From: Candidatus Omnitrophota bacterium
Lineage (GTDB): Bacteria; Omnitrophota; Gorgyraeia; Tantalellales; Tantalellaceae
DNA length: 32,307 bases
Reading direction: 5' to 3'
NCBI GenBank assembly: GCA_018813285.1
Contig: JAHJBY010000050.1
Location: 1 to 32,307 of the forward strand
Part shown: piece after piece, positions 5,614 to 23,781 of the stretch
Numbering within the stretch: position 1 is the first letter of the stretch
How the letters are laid out: every line of letters starts with the position of its first letter
Program-made: the position numbers and the translations under genes
The notes under the pieces: model-generated
Told to the model about the DNA's origin: nothing
The model's database searches: none
The model's input: the letters and a program-made list of their open reading frames with translations, nothing else

Positions 5614-7131
5614 ATGGAAGTATATTTAGCCGGTTACAATGTTGATACGGCCGTTCTTAAAGAACTGGAGGAGAAATCCGGAAAACGTGAAGATCTGACC
5701 CCGGAAGTCCTTTCCGCGGCATATGCCCGTATAAGCCGGGATCCGCGCCCGATCAACGAGATCAGAGAATCCGCCAGAGGTGAGGTGGAACGGTCCCGAA
5801 GATCAAATTCAACGATCATATTCAAAATGGGACATCATTCGGTCGCTGAACACGCGATATTCAATCTGGACATCATCGGTGTTTCACGCCTTGCGATGGA
5901 AGAAATCGAAAAATTCAGATTATGTTCTTATACAGAAAAGTCGCAGCGATATATTACGCTTGATAAGGATTTCGTTATTCCCGAGGAGATAAAAGGGCGA
6001 CAGGCAGAAAAGATGTTCGTTAATATGATCCATGAGCAAAATAAAGCGTATTTCGCGCTTTTCGGGAAATTGCAGGAACATGTTTTCGCGAAACACGCGG
6101 ATCTTGCCGCCGATCCTAAAAATCATAACCTTCTGGAAGGATGGGCAAAAGAAGATGCCCGTTACATCACGGCGCTTGCGACGGAATCGCAGGTGGGCCA
6201 GACGATAAACGCCCGCAATATGGAACTTCTGCTCAGGAGGTTCGCGTCGCATCCGTTGGCCGAGGTCAGGGCTCTGGGATGCGCGTTGTATGAAAAAATA
6301 TCGGATGTCGCGCCCTCTATAGTCCTTTTTCACGAGGCGAACGATCGCGATCTCAAAACGTACCCTGAACTAAGAGAATTGGCCGGAGGGATTCTCGGCA
6401 CTGCCGCTGCGGATATTTCACAGAGCTCCTCACCTGAAGTGCAGCTGGTTGGATCCACGGAAAACGGTGACAATATCATCGCGGCGTCTCTTCTCCATGT
6501 CTCATCAGACATTTCGTATGAACATTGTTTGTCCGTTGTTCAAAATATGCCGGGCGAGAAAAAAATGGAAATATTCAAGGCGGCTTGGCGCAATATGCAG
6601 TTTTATGATTCTATGCCGCGTGAATTTGAGTATGTAAATCTCACTTTCGATGTTGTATTGTCGGCAGCATGTTTCGGGCAGTTAAAAAGGCATCGCATGT
6701 CGACGATCACGGCTCAGCCTTATGACCCGCGGCTTGGCGTCACAATACCCGAGGCGGTAAAAGAGGTCGGCATGGAAGCATATTTTTGGGGGATCACCGA
6801 TAAAACGGCTGAAGTGTATGACGCCATCCGCCGGGAAATACCTCAGGCGGCGCCGTATATTCTGACAAACGCTCACAGGAAGCGAGTGCTGATAAGGCTT
6901 AATGCCCGGGAGATGTACCACATATCACGTTTAAGGGAAGACGCGCACTCCCAATGGGATATCCGGAACATCGCGCGCGCCATGAGTAGAGCGGCGAGGC
7001 AGACAATGCCGTTAGTGTTCGCGGCGACGGGCGGCAAGGATCAGTACAACGAAATTTATAAGAATGTTTTCGGACGGACGCCGAAAGTGGGCGAAGCGGT
7101 GTTGCCCGGCGAGCGAAAGATAAAAGGATAA
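5614..7131 (+). CDS. Tandem ThyX-like protein (flavin-dependent thymidylate synthase family)
   Basis: A 505-residue protein, about twice the length of normal ThyX, made of two ThyX-like halves. Half one (about 1-270) keeps HHSVAEHAIFNLDIIGVSR, but the RHRxxS signature has become KFRLCS (100-105); it also has TINARNMELLLRRF. Half two (about 310-490) keeps FGQLKRHRMST (RHR at 359-361) and IRLNAREMYHISRLR, but has lost the HxSxxEH segment (now REFEYVNL). ThyX makes dTMP from dUMP with methylene-tetrahydrofolate and FAD. Whether this form is catalytic is uncertain: the halves may form one composite site or the protein may have another role. ATG 5614 follows TGGAG. Confidence 0.85.
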   Translation: MEVYLAGYNVDTAVLKELEEKSGKREDLTPEVLSAAYARISRDPRPINEIRESARGEVERSRRSNSTIIFKMGHHSVAEHAIFNLDIIGVSRLAMEEIEKFRLCSYTEKSQRYITLDKDFVIPEEIKGRQAEKMFVNMIHEQNKAYFALFGKLQEHVFAKHADLAADPKNHNLLEGWAKEDARYITALATESQVGQTINARNMELLLRRFASHPLAEVRALGCALYEKISDVAPSIVLFHEANDRDLKTYPELRELAGGILGTAAADISQSSSPEVQLVGSTENGDNIIAASLLHVSSDISYEHCLSVVQNMPGEKKMEIFKAAWRNMQFYDSMPREFEYVNLTFDVVLSAACFGQLKRHRMSTITAQPYDPRLGVTIPEAVKEVGMEAYFWGITDKTAEVYDAIRREIPQAAPYILTNAHRKRVLIRLNAREMYHISRLREDAHSQWDIRNIARAMSRAARQTMPLVFAATGGKDQYNEIYKNVFGRTPKVGEAVLPGERKIKG

Positions 7132-7341: not shown

Positions 7342-7364
7342 TACATTAGAAGGGGGGATTGAAA

Positions 7365-7664
7365 ATGAGTGTGATTGTAAAAAAGTTATTCAAACATGGA
7401 GGTAGCTATGCGGTGGATATACCCATAGAGTTCATTAGAAACAATAGTGGCAGTGAGGTTATCATAGAGGCAACCGCTAAAAAGATAAGTATTCGTCCCA
7501 AAACGGAGTTAGACAATATTGAGTCTGATCCTATGTTTGCTGAATTCATTCAGGCATTAGCTATGGATGTAATGAAACATCCGGAAAAATTGCATGAAGC
7601 AAAAGAGGTTTGGGATGAAGAATGGGATGATCTTCTAAAAGGCATTGTCGCTGATGATGAATAA
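7365..7664 (+). CDS. AbrB/MazE-type antitoxin
   Basis: A 99-residue protein with an N-terminal swapped-hairpin (SpoVT-AbrB) DNA-binding domain, seen as KKLFKHGGSYAVDIPIEFI and EVIIEATAKKISIRP, followed by an acidic C-terminal tail that would wrap and neutralise the toxin. ATG 7365 is preferred over the upstream TTG because AGGGGGG at 7351-7357 is correctly spaced. The gene overlaps its partner, and the pairing of an AbrB-fold antitoxin with a YhaV-like toxin matches the PrlF/YhaV class. It probably represses its own promoter through the palindrome at 7333-7340. Confidence 0.85.
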   Translation: MSVIVKKLFKHGGSYAVDIPIEFIRNNSGSEVIIEATAKKISIRPKTELDNIESDPMFAEFIQALAMDVMKHPEKLHEAKEVWDEEWDDLLKGIVADDE

Positions 7665-8100
7665 TTATCTTTTAAGGTATCATGATTTTTACTATCATCG
7701 CATAGTACGATTGAAACAGCGGGTGATAGAGCTGCGGAAAAAACTTAATGATAAAGAATACGCGCAACATGAAATTGTAAAATTCGCTGCTCGTATCCGT
7801 AAAGCTGATCAAGAAATTATTCCGGAAAACCCTGATCGGCCGGAATATCGTTTGCACGGCGATCTTAAAAGATACCGGCGTTATAAGCAGGGTTTGCAGC
7901 GCTATAGAATGTTTTTCTGTTTTTCTAACCAGCCTAAAATCATTGTTTATCTCTACCTGAATGATGAAAAGCACCTGCGTAAATCCGGCGATAAAAATGA
8001 TGCCTACAAAGAATTTAAAAAACTTGTAGTCAAAAAACACTTCTCGCATAATCCCGAAGATCCTAAAATTCAAAAATGGATAACGAATTATCGCCCTTAA
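7654..8100 (+). CDS. YhaV-family mRNA-cleaving toxin
   Basis: A 148-residue protein whose C-terminal half carries the YhaV pattern: GDLKRYRRYKQGLQRYRMFF, then IIVYLYLNDEKHLRKSG, then DAYKEFKKLV. YhaV proteins are RelE-superfamily ribosome-dependent ribonucleases that block translation when free. The start is ATG 7654 or 7657, both inside the antitoxin gene (8-11 base overlap) with only a weak AAAAGG upstream, which fits coupled, lower-level synthesis of toxin. It is highly basic and AT-rich. The pair looks intact and is probably a recent acquisition. Confidence 0.85.
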   Translation: MMNNYLLRYHDFYYHRIVRLKQRVIELRKKLNDKEYAQHEIVKFAARIRKADQEIIPENPDRPEYRLHGDLKRYRRYKQGLQRYRMFFCFSNQPKIIVYLYLNDEKHLRKSGDKNDAYKEFKKLVVKKHFSHNPEDPKIQKWITNYRP

Positions 8101-8154: not shown

Positions 8155-11007
8155 CTATACTGAAAATAATGCTGCAGAAACCACGTCCGGATCGGGGGAT
8201 TCTATCTTCTCCGGACGTTTCCAATGAATTATGGTCTTTACGATAGACCCAACCCCATCTCTACTAAGATCCTCAATGTATTTGACTATGATTATCGCCC
8301 GATTATCGGTTTCTTCCATTAAGGTATTGATAAAAAACTGGAGTAATCTATATAGCTTTGAATTTTCTAATAGGTCGTTATTAGTTATTTTTCTTGCGAG
8401 AAGCATCATAGCAAAAATATTTTTTCTATGTTTTGAACTATCGACCGTATCTTTCATGCCCTGTGTGTTTATTATCATAAAACGAACGCCGGGTGCGTTA
8501 TCAATGAGCCTTTGAATCTCGCTCTGATTATCCGGGTTTGAGAATTTTTGGGGCAATTGAACCATTACATTATGCGGGTCAAGGCCTCCGGGGTTGTCTT
8601 CGGTTCGGACGATATCGAGTATACGATTTATTGTTGTTCTCGGCCTTGCAGGCTTAATCCACTCAATGTTGAAAATGCTTCCATATTCATCCTTGATATC
8701 TGATTTCTTTTCTTCTTCATCCTTGTAAAAATCGCCGCATGTTATCAAAGTATAATTTTCCTCAAGAACAGGACGTGAAATCTCCATACCAAGTTCATGG
8801 GCAAGAGATTTTGCTTTCTCTATTGCTTTTTTCGCTAATTTATCTTTTATTATTTTTTCCAATATTTTGGGGTTCTCTGTAGCTTTTACTATTGCCATAT
8901 CATCTGACGCACTCCTATTCATTAGAAGACCTACAGCGTAATCACGTGTTAGAAGGTTTGTGTCGAGGCTGACAATAGCAACTGGATTCGGTTCAACCCT
9001 TCTTTCTTCTAATATCTGTAAAACTTCTGTTATTAAGCCTTGAATTGGCTGCGACATTGTTTCTTTTTCTATCGATTGCAGCCCTTGCCTCAACATATCT
9101 TCTAATCGAACGCCATTTACATCTGGATTATCTTCATCACTAAGCCTGTTAACCATTGAAACCATTGTTCCTCTTACAACTTCTATGCTCAATTGTCCCC
9201 TTTCCGCTCTATCAAATATCTTTTCGACCCATGCCTTAATATCTTCCGATGAGCCTGCCTCGGCAGATTTTCTCAAAGCCACTATCATCTCAAAAGGCAT
9301 CCTCGCTTCTCTTGCGACTCGATTGATATAATCAATACCGGCACCTTTCTCGCCTGAATCTACTTCATCCTTTATCCTGTCAAAATCTTCATCATTCACC
9401 CAATGTCCTGTAGGCTTTGACGTATCTAGTTCATCAGAAATCGCGGCTACTGTTTCCGCAGTAAGCTGAGTTACAACAGAAAACCCTATTAGCAGTGTAA
9501 GATGTTTTCTTCTTTCTTCAATTTTTCTCTTTGCGTCAATAACATATGGATGCACTTCCATCCTTTCTTTGTCCGTCCTTTCCGGTCTCCAGGTTCTACC
9601 ATGTGCCAATGTCGCACTTACACGTCTAGCCAAGGCTTTATCAGGAATATGCGTGGAGTCTATTTTATAGCCACCCAGCACGTATCGTACCACTTCCCTC
9701 GCATTTTCAGTTAATGCACCGCTTATAGCCGCGTTGATATCTTTATCGGTAAGCCCTTCATTTTTTACCAAAACTTTAACAATCTCTGGGGCATATTTCC
9801 CGAAATTGAGTAGCGATTTTTCTTGGGGAGTTTTCCGAAGCCAACCCATCGCGTAATCACGTGTTAGAAGGTTCTGATCTAAATCGATAACGGTAGCTTG
9901 TAATTCATTAGCTGGTCTTTCTCCTTGCTGAACTTTTTCCCAGCGCTTATCCAGAAGATTGTAGGGTATTCCATCTTTAACTTCTGTTACAGGATATCCA
10001 AATATAACACCCAATTCATGGATCAGAGACTTAATCCCCTCTTGTTGATCAGCGTTAAAATAAGCCGACACTGTAGCAGTGTCATCCTTCTCGCTTTTTG
10101 GTTCAACTTCTATCTTATGGCCTGCTATGGCATCAAATATTTCAAAATATTTTTCACTGACAAAAATATGGATTGCACTATTACTGGAATGTGAAATGTA
10201 ATTCATACTATGTTCTTTCCCGTTTTCATCCACAATTTCTACTGGTTTCATCTTTGCCTTAAGATCCGGAGTCATTTTTACCCAAAAAATTTCTCTTTTT
10301 TCTACAGGAACAAGGCCATCGAGTGTTGTTATGTTTAGCTTTAAAAGTGTTTGTAGACGGTTCAATAAACTCTCACTCCAGATTTCTCCCATGCCCTGGA
10401 CAAGATTATTTTCATGGGCATATTCCAATACGCTATCTATACCTTTTTCATGCTGGATATATCTTTCAATCGCCTTCGCATCTTCTGGTTTTTGCGTTTT
10501 TCTCCGAGGCAGGATATCCAAACCCAGTTTTTTATATTTCTTCCACTCTTTTTTAGTTAAGACTTCCAGCGGAAATCCACCGTCGTCTTTTTCCTTAGCG
10601 AAAATAACATAGTAATCTTCTGTCCTGTCCCCTTTCTTGAGCCTGCATTTAACAACGGCATACTTATCACTTATGTTTTCCATTCCTTTACCTGAGAAAA
10701 AGAAATGCATATCGGTAGGGCTATAAACGGTATTCTCAGATAATATTGTATCTCTCAATGAAGTTATGTCTATGGTGCCCGCACCATACTTCAATAAATA
10801 CGCTTGTAGAGATAGTTGTATATTGGCAATATCTTTATGCTGCGGACCCTTGAGACCACCAAATATTGAAGCTGCGGCAAGAGTATTTTGGGAAATGTTA
10901 AACCCTACAGGTTTCGCGAACGAAATAGTATTTGTACAAAAAAGGCATACAATAATTGTGGCTATGCTTTTAAATAGGATCACATGTCTTTTTTTGAACA
11001 CATTCAT
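8155..11007 (-). CDS. Large exported protein of unknown function (950 aa)
   Basis: The only clear minus-strand gene. The N-terminus is a signal peptide: basic MNVFKKRHVILFK, a hydrophobic core, then a likely cut after SFA near residue 31. The mature protein is hydrophilic and helix-rich with no family that I recognise. Two segments near residues 378 and 683 share NLLTRDYA followed by [MV]G, and the DNA for this motif is identical over 23 bases (8936-8958 and 9851-9873), so part of the protein is an internal duplication. HELG-containing helices recur (IHELGVIFGYP, LAHELGM), but no HExxH zinc motif is visible. Its style recalls the large secreted orphan proteins of Omnitrophota; the location (periplasm or beyond) is inferred. 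Confidence 0.85.
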   Translation of the reverse strand: MNVFKKRHVILFKSIATIIVCLFCTNTISFAKPVGFNISQNTLAAASIFGGLKGPQHKDIANIQLSLQAYLLKYGAGTIDITSLRDTILSENTVYSPTDMHFFFSGKGMENISDKYAVVKCRLKKGDRTEDYYVIFAKEKDDGGFPLEVLTKKEWKKYKKLGLDILPRRKTQKPEDAKAIERYIQHEKGIDSVLEYAHENNLVQGMGEIWSESLLNRLQTLLKLNITTLDGLVPVEKREIFWVKMTPDLKAKMKPVEIVDENGKEHSMNYISHSSNSAIHIFVSEKYFEIFDAIAGHKIEVEPKSEKDDTATVSAYFNADQQEGIKSLIHELGVIFGYPVTEVKDGIPYNLLDKRWEKVQQGERPANELQATVIDLDQNLLTRDYAMGWLRKTPQEKSLLNFGKYAPEIVKVLVKNEGLTDKDINAAISGALTENAREVVRYVLGGYKIDSTHIPDKALARRVSATLAHGRTWRPERTDKERMEVHPYVIDAKRKIEERRKHLTLLIGFSVVTQLTAETVAAISDELDTSKPTGHWVNDEDFDRIKDEVDSGEKGAGIDYINRVAREARMPFEMIVALRKSAEAGSSEDIKAWVEKIFDRAERGQLSIEVVRGTMVSMVNRLSDEDNPDVNGVRLEDMLRQGLQSIEKETMSQPIQGLITEVLQILEERRVEPNPVAIVSLDTNLLTRDYAVGLLMNRSASDDMAIVKATENPKILEKIIKDKLAKKAIEKAKSLAHELGMEISRPVLEENYTLITCGDFYKDEEEKKSDIKDEYGSIFNIEWIKPARPRTTINRILDIVRTEDNPGGLDPHNVMVQLPQKFSNPDNQSEIQRLIDNAPGVRFMIINTQGMKDTVDSSKHRKNIFAMMLLARKITNNDLLENSKLYRLLQFFINTLMEETDNRAIIIVKYIEDLSRDGVGSIVKTIIHWKRPEKIESPDPDVVSAALFSV
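8183..8218. other. Inverted repeat inside the 3' end of the 950-residue gene
   Basis: ACGTCCGGA (8183-8191) pairs perfectly with TCCGGACGT (8210-8218) with an 18-base loop. It lies within coding sequence about 30 bases before the stop on the minus strand. With no T tract it is not a standard terminator, but it could protect the mRNA 3' end between two convergent genes. Confidence 0.4.
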
Positions 11008-16947: not shown

Positions 16948-17032
16948 TATAGGACCATAATCCCTCTAACCGTTTTGGCCATAACCAAATGTGTTTTGGA
17001 CACAGCGCGTTAGATTTCAGGAGAAAATAAAG

Positions 17033-18220
17033 ATGGGTAAAGTTCTCATAATCGGGGCCGGAGGCGTGGGCAATGTTGTGGCACAAAAATGTGCTTCTCG
17101 ACCGGAGGTGTTCGATGAAATATGCCTGGCCAGCAGGACCCTTGAAAAGTGCGAGATGATAGCCGCTGAAATAGACCGGCCGATCAAAACCCAACAGATA
17201 AACGCGGACAATACCGCTGAAGTCGTCACATTGATCAAAAAATTCAAACCGGAACTTATAATTAATGTCGCTTTGCCGTATCAAGATCTTTCTATTATGG
17301 ACGCATGTCTTGCGACAGGGATCAACTACCTCGATACGGCGAATTATGAGCCTCCGGACGAAGCCAAGTTTTGTTACAAATGGCAGTGGGATTATCAAGA
17401 TCGGTTCAAAGAAAAAGGGGTCATGGCGCTATTGGGCTCGGGCTTCGATCCCGGAGTGACGAATGTTTTTTGCGCGTATGCTATGAAGCATTACTTCGAC
17501 GAGATACATGCTATAGATATTATGGATTGCAACGGCGGATCACATGGCGAGGCCTTTGCTACGAATTTTAATCCGGAGATCAATATTCGCGAGATTACCC
17601 AACGCGGAAAATTCTGGGGAAAAGGCAAGTGGATAGAGACCGATCCGTTATCGGTCCATAAGACGTTTGATTTTCCCGGGATTGGATCGCGTGAAATGTA
17701 TCTTATGTATCATGAAGAACTGGAATCTCTGGTGAAAAACATAAAAGGGTTGAAACGTATCCGTTTCTGGATGACTTTTGGTGAAGAGTACCTTACACAT
17801 CTCAGAGTGCTTCAAAATGTGGGTATGACCCGTATTGATACCGTGAAATACGATGGTCATGACATTGTGCCGCTTAAGTTTCTTAAAACGGTTTTACCCG
17901 AACCGTCATCTTTAGGCGAGAACTATAAAGGCAAGACCAATATCGGGTGCTTGATTAGGGGCGTCAAAGACGGAGAACCGGCTGAAGTGTACATTTATAA
18001 TGTTTGTGACCATGCGGAGTGTTATAAAGAGGTCAAGTCCCAGGCGATCGCTTATACCACCGGTGTTCCGGCCATGATAGGCGCCATGTTAATGATGACA
18101 GGTGTGTGGTCAGGAAAAGGTGTTTTTAACATGGAAGATCTCGATCCCGATCCGTTTATGGAAAAACTGAATATTTATGGCCTTCCCTGGGTGGCGCGGC
18201 AGGATAACCCCGGCGAATGA
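17033..18220 (+). CDS. Carboxynorspermidine dehydrogenase/synthase (saccharopine dehydrogenase family)
   Basis: Condenses aspartate semialdehyde with a diamine (putrescine or diaminopropane) and reduces the product to carboxyspermidine or carboxynorspermidine with NADPH. The 395-residue protein begins MGKVLIIGAGGVGNVVAQKC, a Rossmann GxGxxG fold, followed by the saccharopine-dehydrogenase-like core (ALLGSGFDPGVTNVF, VKSQAIAYTTGVPAM). ATG 17033 is chosen over an upstream open frame because CAGGAG lies just before it. The next gene, overlapping by four bases, is the matching decarboxylase, which secures the pathway assignment. Homospermidine or saccharopine metabolism is less likely. Confidence 0.92.
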   Translation: MGKVLIIGAGGVGNVVAQKCASRPEVFDEICLASRTLEKCEMIAAEIDRPIKTQQINADNTAEVVTLIKKFKPELIINVALPYQDLSIMDACLATGINYLDTANYEPPDEAKFCYKWQWDYQDRFKEKGVMALLGSGFDPGVTNVFCAYAMKHYFDEIHAIDIMDCNGGSHGEAFATNFNPEINIREITQRGKFWGKGKWIETDPLSVHKTFDFPGIGSREMYLMYHEELESLVKNIKGLKRIRFWMTFGEEYLTHLRVLQNVGMTRIDTVKYDGHDIVPLKFLKTVLPEPSSLGENYKGKTNIGCLIRGVKDGEPAEVYIYNVCDHAECYKEVKSQAIAYTTGVPAMIGAMLMMTGVWSGKGVFNMEDLDPDPFMEKLNIYGLPWVARQDNPGE

Positions 18221-19371
18221 CGCGATCTATGAATATTATCTCAAAAGTCCCTGTTACTCCCTGTTATGTTGTTGATGAAAATTTGCTCATCAAAAACCTT
18301 GAGATCCTTGCGGATGTCGAACGCCGGGCGGGATGTAAGATCATATTGGCCCTCAAGGCTTTCGCGATGTTCAGCACATTTCCGCTTATTCGTCAGTATC
18401 TGTCGGGTATCGCGGCAAGTTCTCTCGATGAAGCCCGGCTTGGTTCACGTGAGTTCGGTGGCAGTGTACACATATGCGCCCCGGCATACAAGGAACAAGA
18501 GATCGATGAGCTTATCAGTCACGCCACCCACATAAATTTCAACTCTTTTTCGCAATGGAAACGTTTCAAGCAGAACATAATGTCTGCCGGAAATGAAGTG
18601 CGTGCCGGCCTGCGTGTTAATCCCGAACATTCTGAAGTCGCGGTTGCCTTATATGACCCATGCGCACCGGGTTCCCGTCTCGGGATCAAGGCGGATCATT
18701 TTGCAGGGGAAGATCTTTCCGGTATCACGGGTCTGCATTTTCATACTCTTTGTGAGCTTAATTCAGATTCCCTGGAACGTACACTCGCGGTGGTGGAGAA
18801 AAAGTTCGGAACGATTCTTGCGCAAATGGAATGGGTGAATTTCGGAGGTGGTCATCACATTACACGTTCGGATTATGATACGGACAGGCTTTGCCGTCTG
18901 ATATCCGGGTTTCGAAAAAAATATGATGTCAAAGTATACCTTGAACCGGGCGAAGCCGTCGTGCTTGATACCGGTTTTCTGGTGGCGTCCGTGCTTGATG
19001 TCATACAGGATGATAAGGCCGATATCGCTATTCTTGATACCTCGGCTGCCGCGCATATGCCGGATGTGTTGGAGATGCCGTATCGCCCGATGGTCTTAGG
19101 CGCGGGACTTCCCGGAGAGTACGAACACACGTACCGCCTTGGAGGGTTGACATGTCTGGCAGGCGATGTTATCGGGGATTATTCGTTTCCCGAACCGCAG
19201 GCGGCGGGAAGCCGCATTGTTTTTAAGGATATGGCGCATTACACCATGGTCAAGAATAACACTTTTAACGGTGTCTCTTTACCGGACATAGCCATTCTTA
19301 CTAAAGGGAACGGTGAGTTTCGCGTAGTACGTGAATTCGGGTATAAAGATTATCGGGATCGCCTCTCATGA
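18217..19371 (+). CDS. nspC: Carboxynorspermidine/carboxyspermidine decarboxylase
   Basis: A 384-residue PLP enzyme of the alanine-racemase-fold (group IV) decarboxylase family that completes synthesis of spermidine or norspermidine. The Schiff-base lysine is K47 in ILALKAFA. Other matches include LGIKADHF, GLHFHTLCE, VNFGGGHHITR, YLEPGEAVV (phosphate binding) and CLAGDVIGDY (active-site Cys/Asp). It starts at ATG 18217 in an ATGA overlap with the dehydrogenase; ATG 18229 is a possible alternative. With the previous gene it gives the S-adenosylmethionine-independent polyamine route. Confidence 0.95.
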   Translation: MTRSMNIISKVPVTPCYVVDENLLIKNLEILADVERRAGCKIILALKAFAMFSTFPLIRQYLSGIAASSLDEARLGSREFGGSVHICAPAYKEQEIDELISHATHINFNSFSQWKRFKQNIMSAGNEVRAGLRVNPEHSEVAVALYDPCAPGSRLGIKADHFAGEDLSGITGLHFHTLCELNSDSLERTLAVVEKKFGTILAQMEWVNFGGGHHITRSDYDTDRLCRLISGFRKKYDVKVYLEPGEAVVLDTGFLVASVLDVIQDDKADIAILDTSAAAHMPDVLEMPYRPMVLGAGLPGEYEHTYRLGGLTCLAGDVIGDYSFPEPQAAGSRIVFKDMAHYTMVKNNTFNGVSLPDIAILTKGNGEFRVVREFGYKDYRDRLS

Positions 19372-22170: not shown

Positions 22171-23781
22171 ATGAGTCAGTTATCTTTTGACGCCGTGATC
22201 TTTGACCTGGACGGAGTAGTCACCAAAACGGCACTTGTTCACGCCACCGCGTGGAAGGCGGTTTTCGACGAATATATGCATGGAAGAGAGAAGACCCGCG
22301 GTGAGCCTTTCAGAGAATTTACGCATGAAAAGGATTACTTGCCATATGTGGACGGTAAACCGAGGTACGAGGGTGTGAAAAGTTTTCTGGAATCGCGAGG
22401 AATCGATCTGTCGTATGGTGATCCTGAAGACGCTCCGGAAAAAGAAACAGTGTGTGGTATAGGGAACCGAAAGAACATTAAGTTTGTGGAAATATTGGAA
22501 GCAAATGGTGTGGAGGAATATGATTCCACCGTTAGTTTTGTAAAGGAATTACAAAAGAAAGGCATTCGTATCGGTGTCGCGTCATCGTCAAAAAACTGCA
22601 AGTATGTGCTTAAGGCCGCCGGGATAGAAGAGCTTTTTGAGACACGTGTAGATGGAGAAGTTTCGGCTCAAATGGGGCTTAAGGGGAAGCCGGAAGGAGA
22701 TATTTTTGTGACCGCCGCGGCGAATATCGGCGCGCGTCCGGCCAGGTCCGTTGTTGTGGAAGACGCGACTTCCGGAGTCGAGGCCGGTAGGAACGGGGCT
22801 TTCGGGCTTGTGATAGGTATAGCGCGCGAAAATAACACAGGTGAACTTTACAAGAACGGGGCGGACGTGGTGGTTCCCGATATGGAATATATCGATGTTG
22901 AATGGATAGAGAAATGGTTCAGAAAGAAGCCGCGTGATCTGTTTGAGTTCTGGGACAGAAGCATTACCGTAAACGAAGCGGCCGGAAACGCGAAAAACAA
23001 AGCCAATATCAATCCATGTTATTTGAAGAGCGGAAAAGACACCATATTTAACGGAAAAAAACCCGTATTTTTCTTTGATTATGACGGCACATTGACCCCG
23101 ATAGTGGCGCGTCCGGAGCTTGCTGTTATTTCCGGGGATATGAAAGAAGTTGTAGAGCGGATCATAGAGAAATACACTACTGCCATAGTCAGCGGCAGAC
23201 CCCGGGAAGATGTTGAACAGCTTTTAGGCATAGAAGGGCTTATTTATGCGGGAAATCATGGTTTTGACATCGCAGGTCCGAATATCTCCATGATATATCC
23301 GGGAGCCGAGGAGTATATGCCGCTCATAAAGGAGATCACCGGGGAACTTTTCGGCCGGATCGGGTCTATTCCGGGGGTGCTGATCGAGGAAAAGAAGTTC
23401 TCCCTGGGTGTTCATTACCGCCTTGTGGATAAAAAAGCATTTCCGGAGATAAAAAAAATCATTGAAAAAACAGTTCGAGATCATGAGAAACTCCGCATAA
23501 TGCATGGGAAAAAGGTCTTTGAGATCATGCCGGCGATAGAGTGGGACAAAGGTAAAGCGGTTCGTTGGATAATGGGGGTGTTGGGGCTTTCATGGGATGA
23601 GGCATCTGTTATATATGTCGGTGATGATACGACAGATGAGGATGTTTTCAGGATACTCAGGACAAGAGGGGTGGGAATCCTTGTTACGGATGAAGATAAT
23701 CCGTCGTTTGCGGATTTTTCCGTAAAATCCCCCGAAAAAGTAAAAGAATTGCTCGATGAAATATTATCCACAGGAAAGTGA
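22171..23781 (+). CDS. otsB: Fused HAD (beta-PGM-like) phosphatase and trehalose-6-phosphate phosphatase
   Basis: A 536-residue two-domain protein. The N-terminal domain (1-250) is a complete HAD-IA unit: FDLDGVV with D12/D14, VASSSKNCKYV as motif II, KPEGDIF as motif III and VVEDATSGVEAG as motif IV, in the style of beta-phosphoglucomutase. The C-terminal domain (about 295-536) is OtsB-like: FFFDYDGTLTPI with D303/D305, SGRPREDV, AGNHGF, and YVGDDTTDED. It would release trehalose from trehalose 6-phosphate. A similar domain order is known in mycobacterial OtsB1. No OtsA synthase is in the window. ATG 22171 follows TGGAG. Confidence 0.92.
   Translation: MSQLSFDAVIFDLDGVVTKTALVHATAWKAVFDEYMHGREKTRGEPFREFTHEKDYLPYVDGKPRYEGVKSFLESRGIDLSYGDPEDAPEKETVCGIGNRKNIKFVEILEANGVEEYDSTVSFVKELQKKGIRIGVASSSKNCKYVLKAAGIEELFETRVDGEVSAQMGLKGKPEGDIFVTAAANIGARPARSVVVEDATSGVEAGRNGAFGLVIGIARENNTGELYKNGADVVVPDMEYIDVEWIEKWFRKKPRDLFEFWDRSITVNEAAGNAKNKANINPCYLKSGKDTIFNGKKPVFFFDYDGTLTPIVARPELAVISGDMKEVVERIIEKYTTAIVSGRPREDVEQLLGIEGLIYAGNHGFDIAGPNISMIYPGAEEYMPLIKEITGELFGRIGSIPGVLIEEKKFSLGVHYRLVDKKAFPEIKKIIEKTVRDHEKLRIMHGKKVFEIMPAIEWDKGKAVRWIMGVLGLSWDEASVIYVGDDTTDEDVFRILRTRGVGILVTDEDNPSFADFSVKSPEKVKELLDEILSTGK

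Follow-up and report, generated by a model that had tools for sequence, protein, structure and literature searches.

A gene in a genome of Candidatus Omnitrophota bacterium seemed to hold two copies of the flavin-dependent thymidylate synthase ThyX in one frame, each copy missing part of the active site, which raised the question of whether the encoded protein can still make thymidylate and, if so, how its sites are built. The product of ThyX is a DNA building block, and the absence of the enzyme from humans makes it a drug target. We analysed the gene within its window, the whole stretch of 32,307 nucleotides of contig in which it lies, together with relatives of the protein and the genomes that encode them.

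The gene, identified from open reading frame calls, Pfam and NCBIfam as an FAD-dependent thymidylate synthase, is a single uninterrupted frame of 505 residues with an ATG start, bounded exactly by positions 5614–7131 of the forward strand and preceded by GGAG ~8 nt upstream. Pfam Thy1 (PF02511) matched the whole protein in two stretches (189.1 bits against a cut-off of 24.8), with per-half matches at 5698–6318 (113.5 bits) and 6445–7011 (78.6 bits). The protein also passed the cut-off of the NCBIfam thyX equivalog TIGR02170 (123.8 vs. 87.9 bits), while the Pfam scan gave Thy1 alone and no ThyA domain (PF00303). On the forward strand, domain 1 (residues 1–245) spans 5614–6348 and domain 2 (residues 275–490) spans 6436–7083; the linker between them (6349–6435) has no invariant column over residues 246–270.

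Elsewhere in the window, a likely toxin-antitoxin pair lies directly downstream of thyX (7359–8100), where a YhaV-family toxin gene (7645–8100, Pfam 94 bits) overlaps a small frame with a weak VapB-like match (7359–7664). Adjoining genes for a carboxynorspermidine synthase-like protein and a carboxynorspermidine decarboxylase (16991–19371) make up a polyamine pathway pair, and one protein combines HAD hydrolase and trehalose-phosphatase domains (22171–23781). A 950-residue frame on the minus strand (8155–11007) had no Pfam or NCBIfam match.

A sequence-only reading of this DNA had proposed that the two halves lost complementary motifs, the first keeping HxSxxEH and losing RHRxxS and the second keeping RHR and losing HxSxxEH, and both observations held in the single protein with two Thy1 domains. 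Residue numbers below follow Mycobacterium tuberculosis (Mtb) ThyX unless given as tandem-protein or T. maritima numbers, and the motif positions in the window are on the forward strand. Domain 1 carries HxSxxEH as GHHSVAEH (5830–5853; H69, S71, E74 and H75, each in 79/79 tandem sequences) and keeps NAR (6208–6216; N188–R190; tandem N199 and R201 in 79/79). In KFRLCSYTEKSQRY (5911–5952), its RHR is degraded (R95 to K, H96 to F) and the SxRY loop is kept (S105, R107 and Y108, corresponding to tandem S110, R112 and Y113 in 79/79), with the lost RHR positions occupied by K/R/H and F/Y/L across relatives. Domain 2 keeps QLKRHR (6679–6696; R95, H96 and R97; tandem Q356, K358, R359, H360 and R361 in 79/79) and NAREMYHISRLR (6901–6936), which ends in tandem R441 (Mtb R199, T. 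maritima R174), the arginine that activates dUMP; both R432 and R441 were found in 79/79 sequences. HxSxxEH is degenerate in domain 2. A complete RHRxxS occurs in neither half, the counterpart being KFRLCS in domain 1, where the second Arg and the Ser remain, and RHRMST in domain 2. Beyond what had been noticed, the SxRY loop, which handles dUMP and folate and shuts the site, is also lost downstream of the domain-2 QLKRHR.

The pattern of losses can be compared with the published roles of ThyX subunits. Every active site of the Mtb tetramer is built from three subunits with roles A, B and C: role A contacts FAD through RHR (R95-H96-R97) and dUMP through R95 and R199; in role B, S71 and R190 contact the phosphates of FAD; and in role C, R87, S105 and R107 contact dUMP, Y108 forms a lid and Q103 adds a backbone contact (PMC6514825). 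The catalytic T. maritima residues S88, R90, Y91 and R174 correspond to S105, R107, Y108 and R199, and H53 of that enzyme is supplied by a third monomer (PMC3498832, PMC8316439, PMC11940539). Mapped across 79 tandem sequences, domain 1 retained H69, S71, E74, H75, R87, R97, S105, R107, Y108 and R190 in 79/79, with the R95 position held by K in 63, H in 4 and R in 12 and the H96 position by F, Y or L. Domain 2 retained R95, H96, R97, R199 and R190 in 79/79 and was without S71, R87, S105, R107 and Y108. By this mapping, all role-A residues fall in domain 2 and all role-B and role-C residues in domain 1, and only by pooling both domains is the full FAD/dUMP set obtained (R95, H96, R97, R199; S71, R190; R87, S105, R107, Y108). 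The retained residues divide by published subunit role, not arbitrarily. The domain-1 site is degraded rather than erased, since R97 is kept and R95 is still Arg in 12/79 relatives.

All 12 scored retained role residues were invariant among 79 homologues, in an alignment with 96 invariant columns out of 505 and pairwise identities as low as 54% for domain 1 and 41% for domain 2. The probability of placing 12 role residues within those columns (hypergeometric P ~1 × 10−9) overstates independence, as the sequences are related and active sites are generally conserved, and serves as a guide only; the keeping of complementary residue sets in each half is the stronger argument. Relatives of the tandem protein were encoded, by the criterion of the search, on 343 stretches, counting one genome per GTDB species, and the follow-up used the best 80 of these, in which all that were translated were tandem. 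Labels among the best 80 of 343 were mostly Omnitrophota and Aminicenantes, with some Elusimicrobia, Acidobacteria, Auribacterota, Latescibacterota, Fibrobacterota and Chitinivibrionales and one Clostridiales; these are labels of metagenome-assembled genomes, which may include misbinned contigs. The tandem was also found on one 470-kb IMG/VR contig. This variant of a known enzyme is widespread, and its annotation is simply FAD-dependent thymidylate synthase.

We then assessed the thymidylate synthase complement of the genomes that encode the tandem. The source genome (1.76 Mb, 96.7% complete) has one ThyX locus, and no second ThyX, no ThyA (PF00303), no dihydrofolate reductase (DHFR) and no convincing thymidine kinase were found in it; a separate thymidylate synthase, which together with a predicted structure lacking an intact FAD/dUMP site would have counted, for the sequence-only reading, against its own proposal, was not found in the assembly. 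Among 59 genomes comprising the source genome and relatives of the same class, 12 encoded this tandem, 3 another tandem type and 14 a single ThyX only (one of them partial), ThyA or a ThyA-like protein occurred in 26 (two of them beside a single ThyX), and nothing was found in 6. ThyA was present in 0/15 tandem genomes and 26/44 others (Fisher P = 3 × 10−5, kinship not corrected), and the same contrast for the 12 genomes with this tandem, in which PF00303 was also absent from the other 11 relatives, gave P = 6 × 10−4 (kinship likewise not corrected). Within the family, the tandem occurred in 9 genomes and a single ThyX in 7 (one a partial match), and only one had both (P = 0.057). DHFR was confined to the four of the 59 genomes that have a strong ThyA match, as expected because ThyX does not convert tetrahydrofolate to dihydrofolate.

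The survey was extended to 50 further tandem genomes drawn from the best-80 loci, two of which coincide with the 59-genome set. PF00303 was unmatched in 36 of these, a canonical ThyA occurred in one and a divergent ThyA-like protein in 13, and a normal ThyX was also present in two. Weak ThyA matches were counted as possible second synthases because the three cases inspected were ThyA-like proteins with a PPC motif. Taking both sets together, the tandem was the sole recognised thymidylate synthase candidate in 42/60 tandem genomes, and at least 18 had another candidate (normal ThyX in 4, canonical ThyA in 1, divergent ThyA-like protein in 13). The gene most likely encodes the host's essential thymidylate synthase.

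The 13 tandem genomes with a ThyA-like protein were mostly Aminicenantes, with frames mostly of 308–340 aa. Separately, many genomes of the class without ThyX encoded a divergent ThyA-like protein (mostly 250–314 aa, ~33–49 bits to PF00303) and had no DHFR match. Thymidine kinase salvage was considered and set aside: matches of ~19–24 bits, mostly to frames of 350–380 aa in about half of the genomes, were borderline and resembled another P-loop protein.

An alternative offered with the original proposal was a new flavin-dependent activity, and for this no positive evidence emerged. In its most specific form, the protein would be a neofunctionalised methylase that binds FAD and folate at the composite site and methylates another pyrimidine, with dUMP not the main substrate. 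There is precedent in PolB, a ThyX paralogue that methylates both dUMP and UMP for the antibiotic polyoxin (PMC5954106), and four genomes (G004, G040, G074 and G078) encode the tandem together with a normal ThyX. Yet every dUMP-contacting residue is retained and invariant, most tandem genomes lack both ThyA and normal ThyX and would be left without a visible source of dTMP, and no antibiotic cluster was present among the genes annotated within the window, all of which makes such a shift of substrate very improbable. PolB also differs in that it is a ThyX relative with a further role, while the tandem usually stands in for a missing thymidylate synthase.

We consider it highly likely, from residue conservation and gene content, that the tandem serves the cell as its functional flavin-dependent thymidylate synthase, acting as a dimer that imitates the usual tetramer with two composite sites live and two dead, and the two halves very probably build these sites together. 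Under this model, an ancient ThyX duplication would have been fused into a single chain, after which the active-site roles were divided between the halves, and two chains would form a pseudo-tetramer. Each live site would take role A from domain 2 of one chain, with RHR gripping FAD and Arg activating dUMP; role B from one domain-1 copy, with the Ser of HxSxxEH and the Arg of NxR reaching the FAD phosphates; and role C from the other domain-1 copy, with R87, S105 and R107 on dUMP beneath the Y108 lid. The remaining two sites would lack role A and be dead. The ThyX tetramer has 222 (D2) symmetry (PMC3498832). If role-A domains took two positions related by one axis, with the remaining two filled by domain 1, each role-A domain would meet domain-1 neighbours supplying roles B and C. 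Two sites per dimer would then be complete, and this would be the only kind of two-plus-two assignment that completes any site. The composite-site interpretation put forward at the outset is supported in so far as the split follows subunit roles, the symmetry permits it and no rival synthase was found in the genome; from these we infer a dimer with two sites that would bind FAD and dUMP and form dTMP.

Structure prediction of the monomer was consistent with the ThyX fold. An AlphaFold2 model from 72 sequences (pLDDT 83.4, pTM 0.82) showed ThyX-like elements in both halves, with weak stretches at residues 27–41 and 60–75, the latter immediately preceding HxSxxEH; it was used in place of an earlier run with 12 sequences, in which the N-terminal half was poor (pLDDT 59.7). 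The PDB matches listed for the model were all T. maritima ThyX (best E = 4 × 10−8, TM by target length 0.63–0.72) and covered ~205–243 columns, equivalent to one domain, while the best match among viral models, the thymidylate synthase of Microcystis phage LMM01 (491 residues), spanned the full length. As the model covers the monomer alone, a true thymidylate synthase could in principle complete its site within one undimerised chain or in a higher oligomer of another geometry. This seems very unlikely given that the known ThyX site needs three subunits and one chain has two domains, so that no assembly smaller than a dimer could fill all three roles. That the protein is instead a decaying, inactive paralogue whose losses are plain degeneration, with dTMP coming from salvage or from an enzyme missing from the 96.7% complete assembly, is highly improbable given the invariance of twelve role residues across 79 homologues from several phyla, a conserved open frame and the repeated absence of other synthases across dozens of genomes.

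The same core split was found in tandem ThyX proteins at 22–27% identity, including a second tandem family within the Omnitrophota class and proteins from plasmids of Bacillus, Paenibacillus, Euzebya, Miltoncostaea and Parabacteroides, from Tunturiibacter phage Tunturi_5 and from a faecal phage record. In these divergent tandems domain 1 holds S71 (Thr in one branch), S105, R107 and Y/F108, and domain 2 holds RHR or RHxR plus R199, with some role-B and role-C residues altered (H69 to Asp, R87 to Asn). When the halves were placed separately in a tree, domain 1 of the two Omnitrophota-class families grouped with support of 100, but the branches were too long to tell whether all tandems go back to a single duplication. 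A further idea, which we regard as speculative and rather doubtful, is that such proteins form a large unrecognised class of obligately asymmetric enzymes in which two of four ancestral sites, now permanently retired, persist as non-catalytic pockets that may have a regulatory role and carry conserved replacement residues such as tandem Arg 336 of domain 2, which is invariant and lies near the S71 position.

One second-type tandem (765 aa; genome G058, L123:1357–3651, minus strand) is interrupted by an intein between HPFYN and SEQVSQRY, within the substrate loop, as indicated by a Pfam intein splicing domain (59.4 bits) and NCBIfam N- and C-terminal splicing regions.

A tandem of this kind would amount to a natural genetic dissection, with three subunit roles allotted to two distinct domains, which the normal ThyX site does not permit as each subunit plays all roles. 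It would allow role A to be mutated without affecting roles B and C, half-of-sites behaviour to be tested and the question of why fusion was favoured to be addressed. Motif checks on single domains, such as for RHRxxS, would wrongly call such proteins inactive.

Among known systems, we found no description in the open literature of tandem or duplicated ThyX with divided roles. Griffin et al. (2005, J Biol Chem 280:5456) reportedly assayed the activity of a long (~530 aa) ThyX from Chlamydia trachomatis, which may be of the tandem kind; if so, the class has already been assayed. Public records WP_080623771.1 (B. licheniformis plasmid), WP_009276148.1 (Parabacteroides plasmid) and XOB77493.1 (Tunturiibacter phage Tunturi_5) each contain a pair of Thy1 domains, show the same core split and are annotated as (FAD-dependent) thymidylate synthase; unlike the Omnitrophota protein, public long tandems, at ~22–27% identity to it, carry some role-B and role-C substitutions such as H69 to Asp. 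Canonical ThyX, also termed FDTS (T. maritima TM0449, M. tuberculosis), shares with the tandem the Thy1 domain, the pooled active-site residues and the FAD/dUMP roles, and like it is largely exclusive with ThyA. It uses FAD and NADPH to convert dUMP to dTMP and is a homotetramer with four sites, each shared by three subunits, whereas the tandem has two fused, role-divided domains and is predicted to form a dimer in which two sites are live and two dead.
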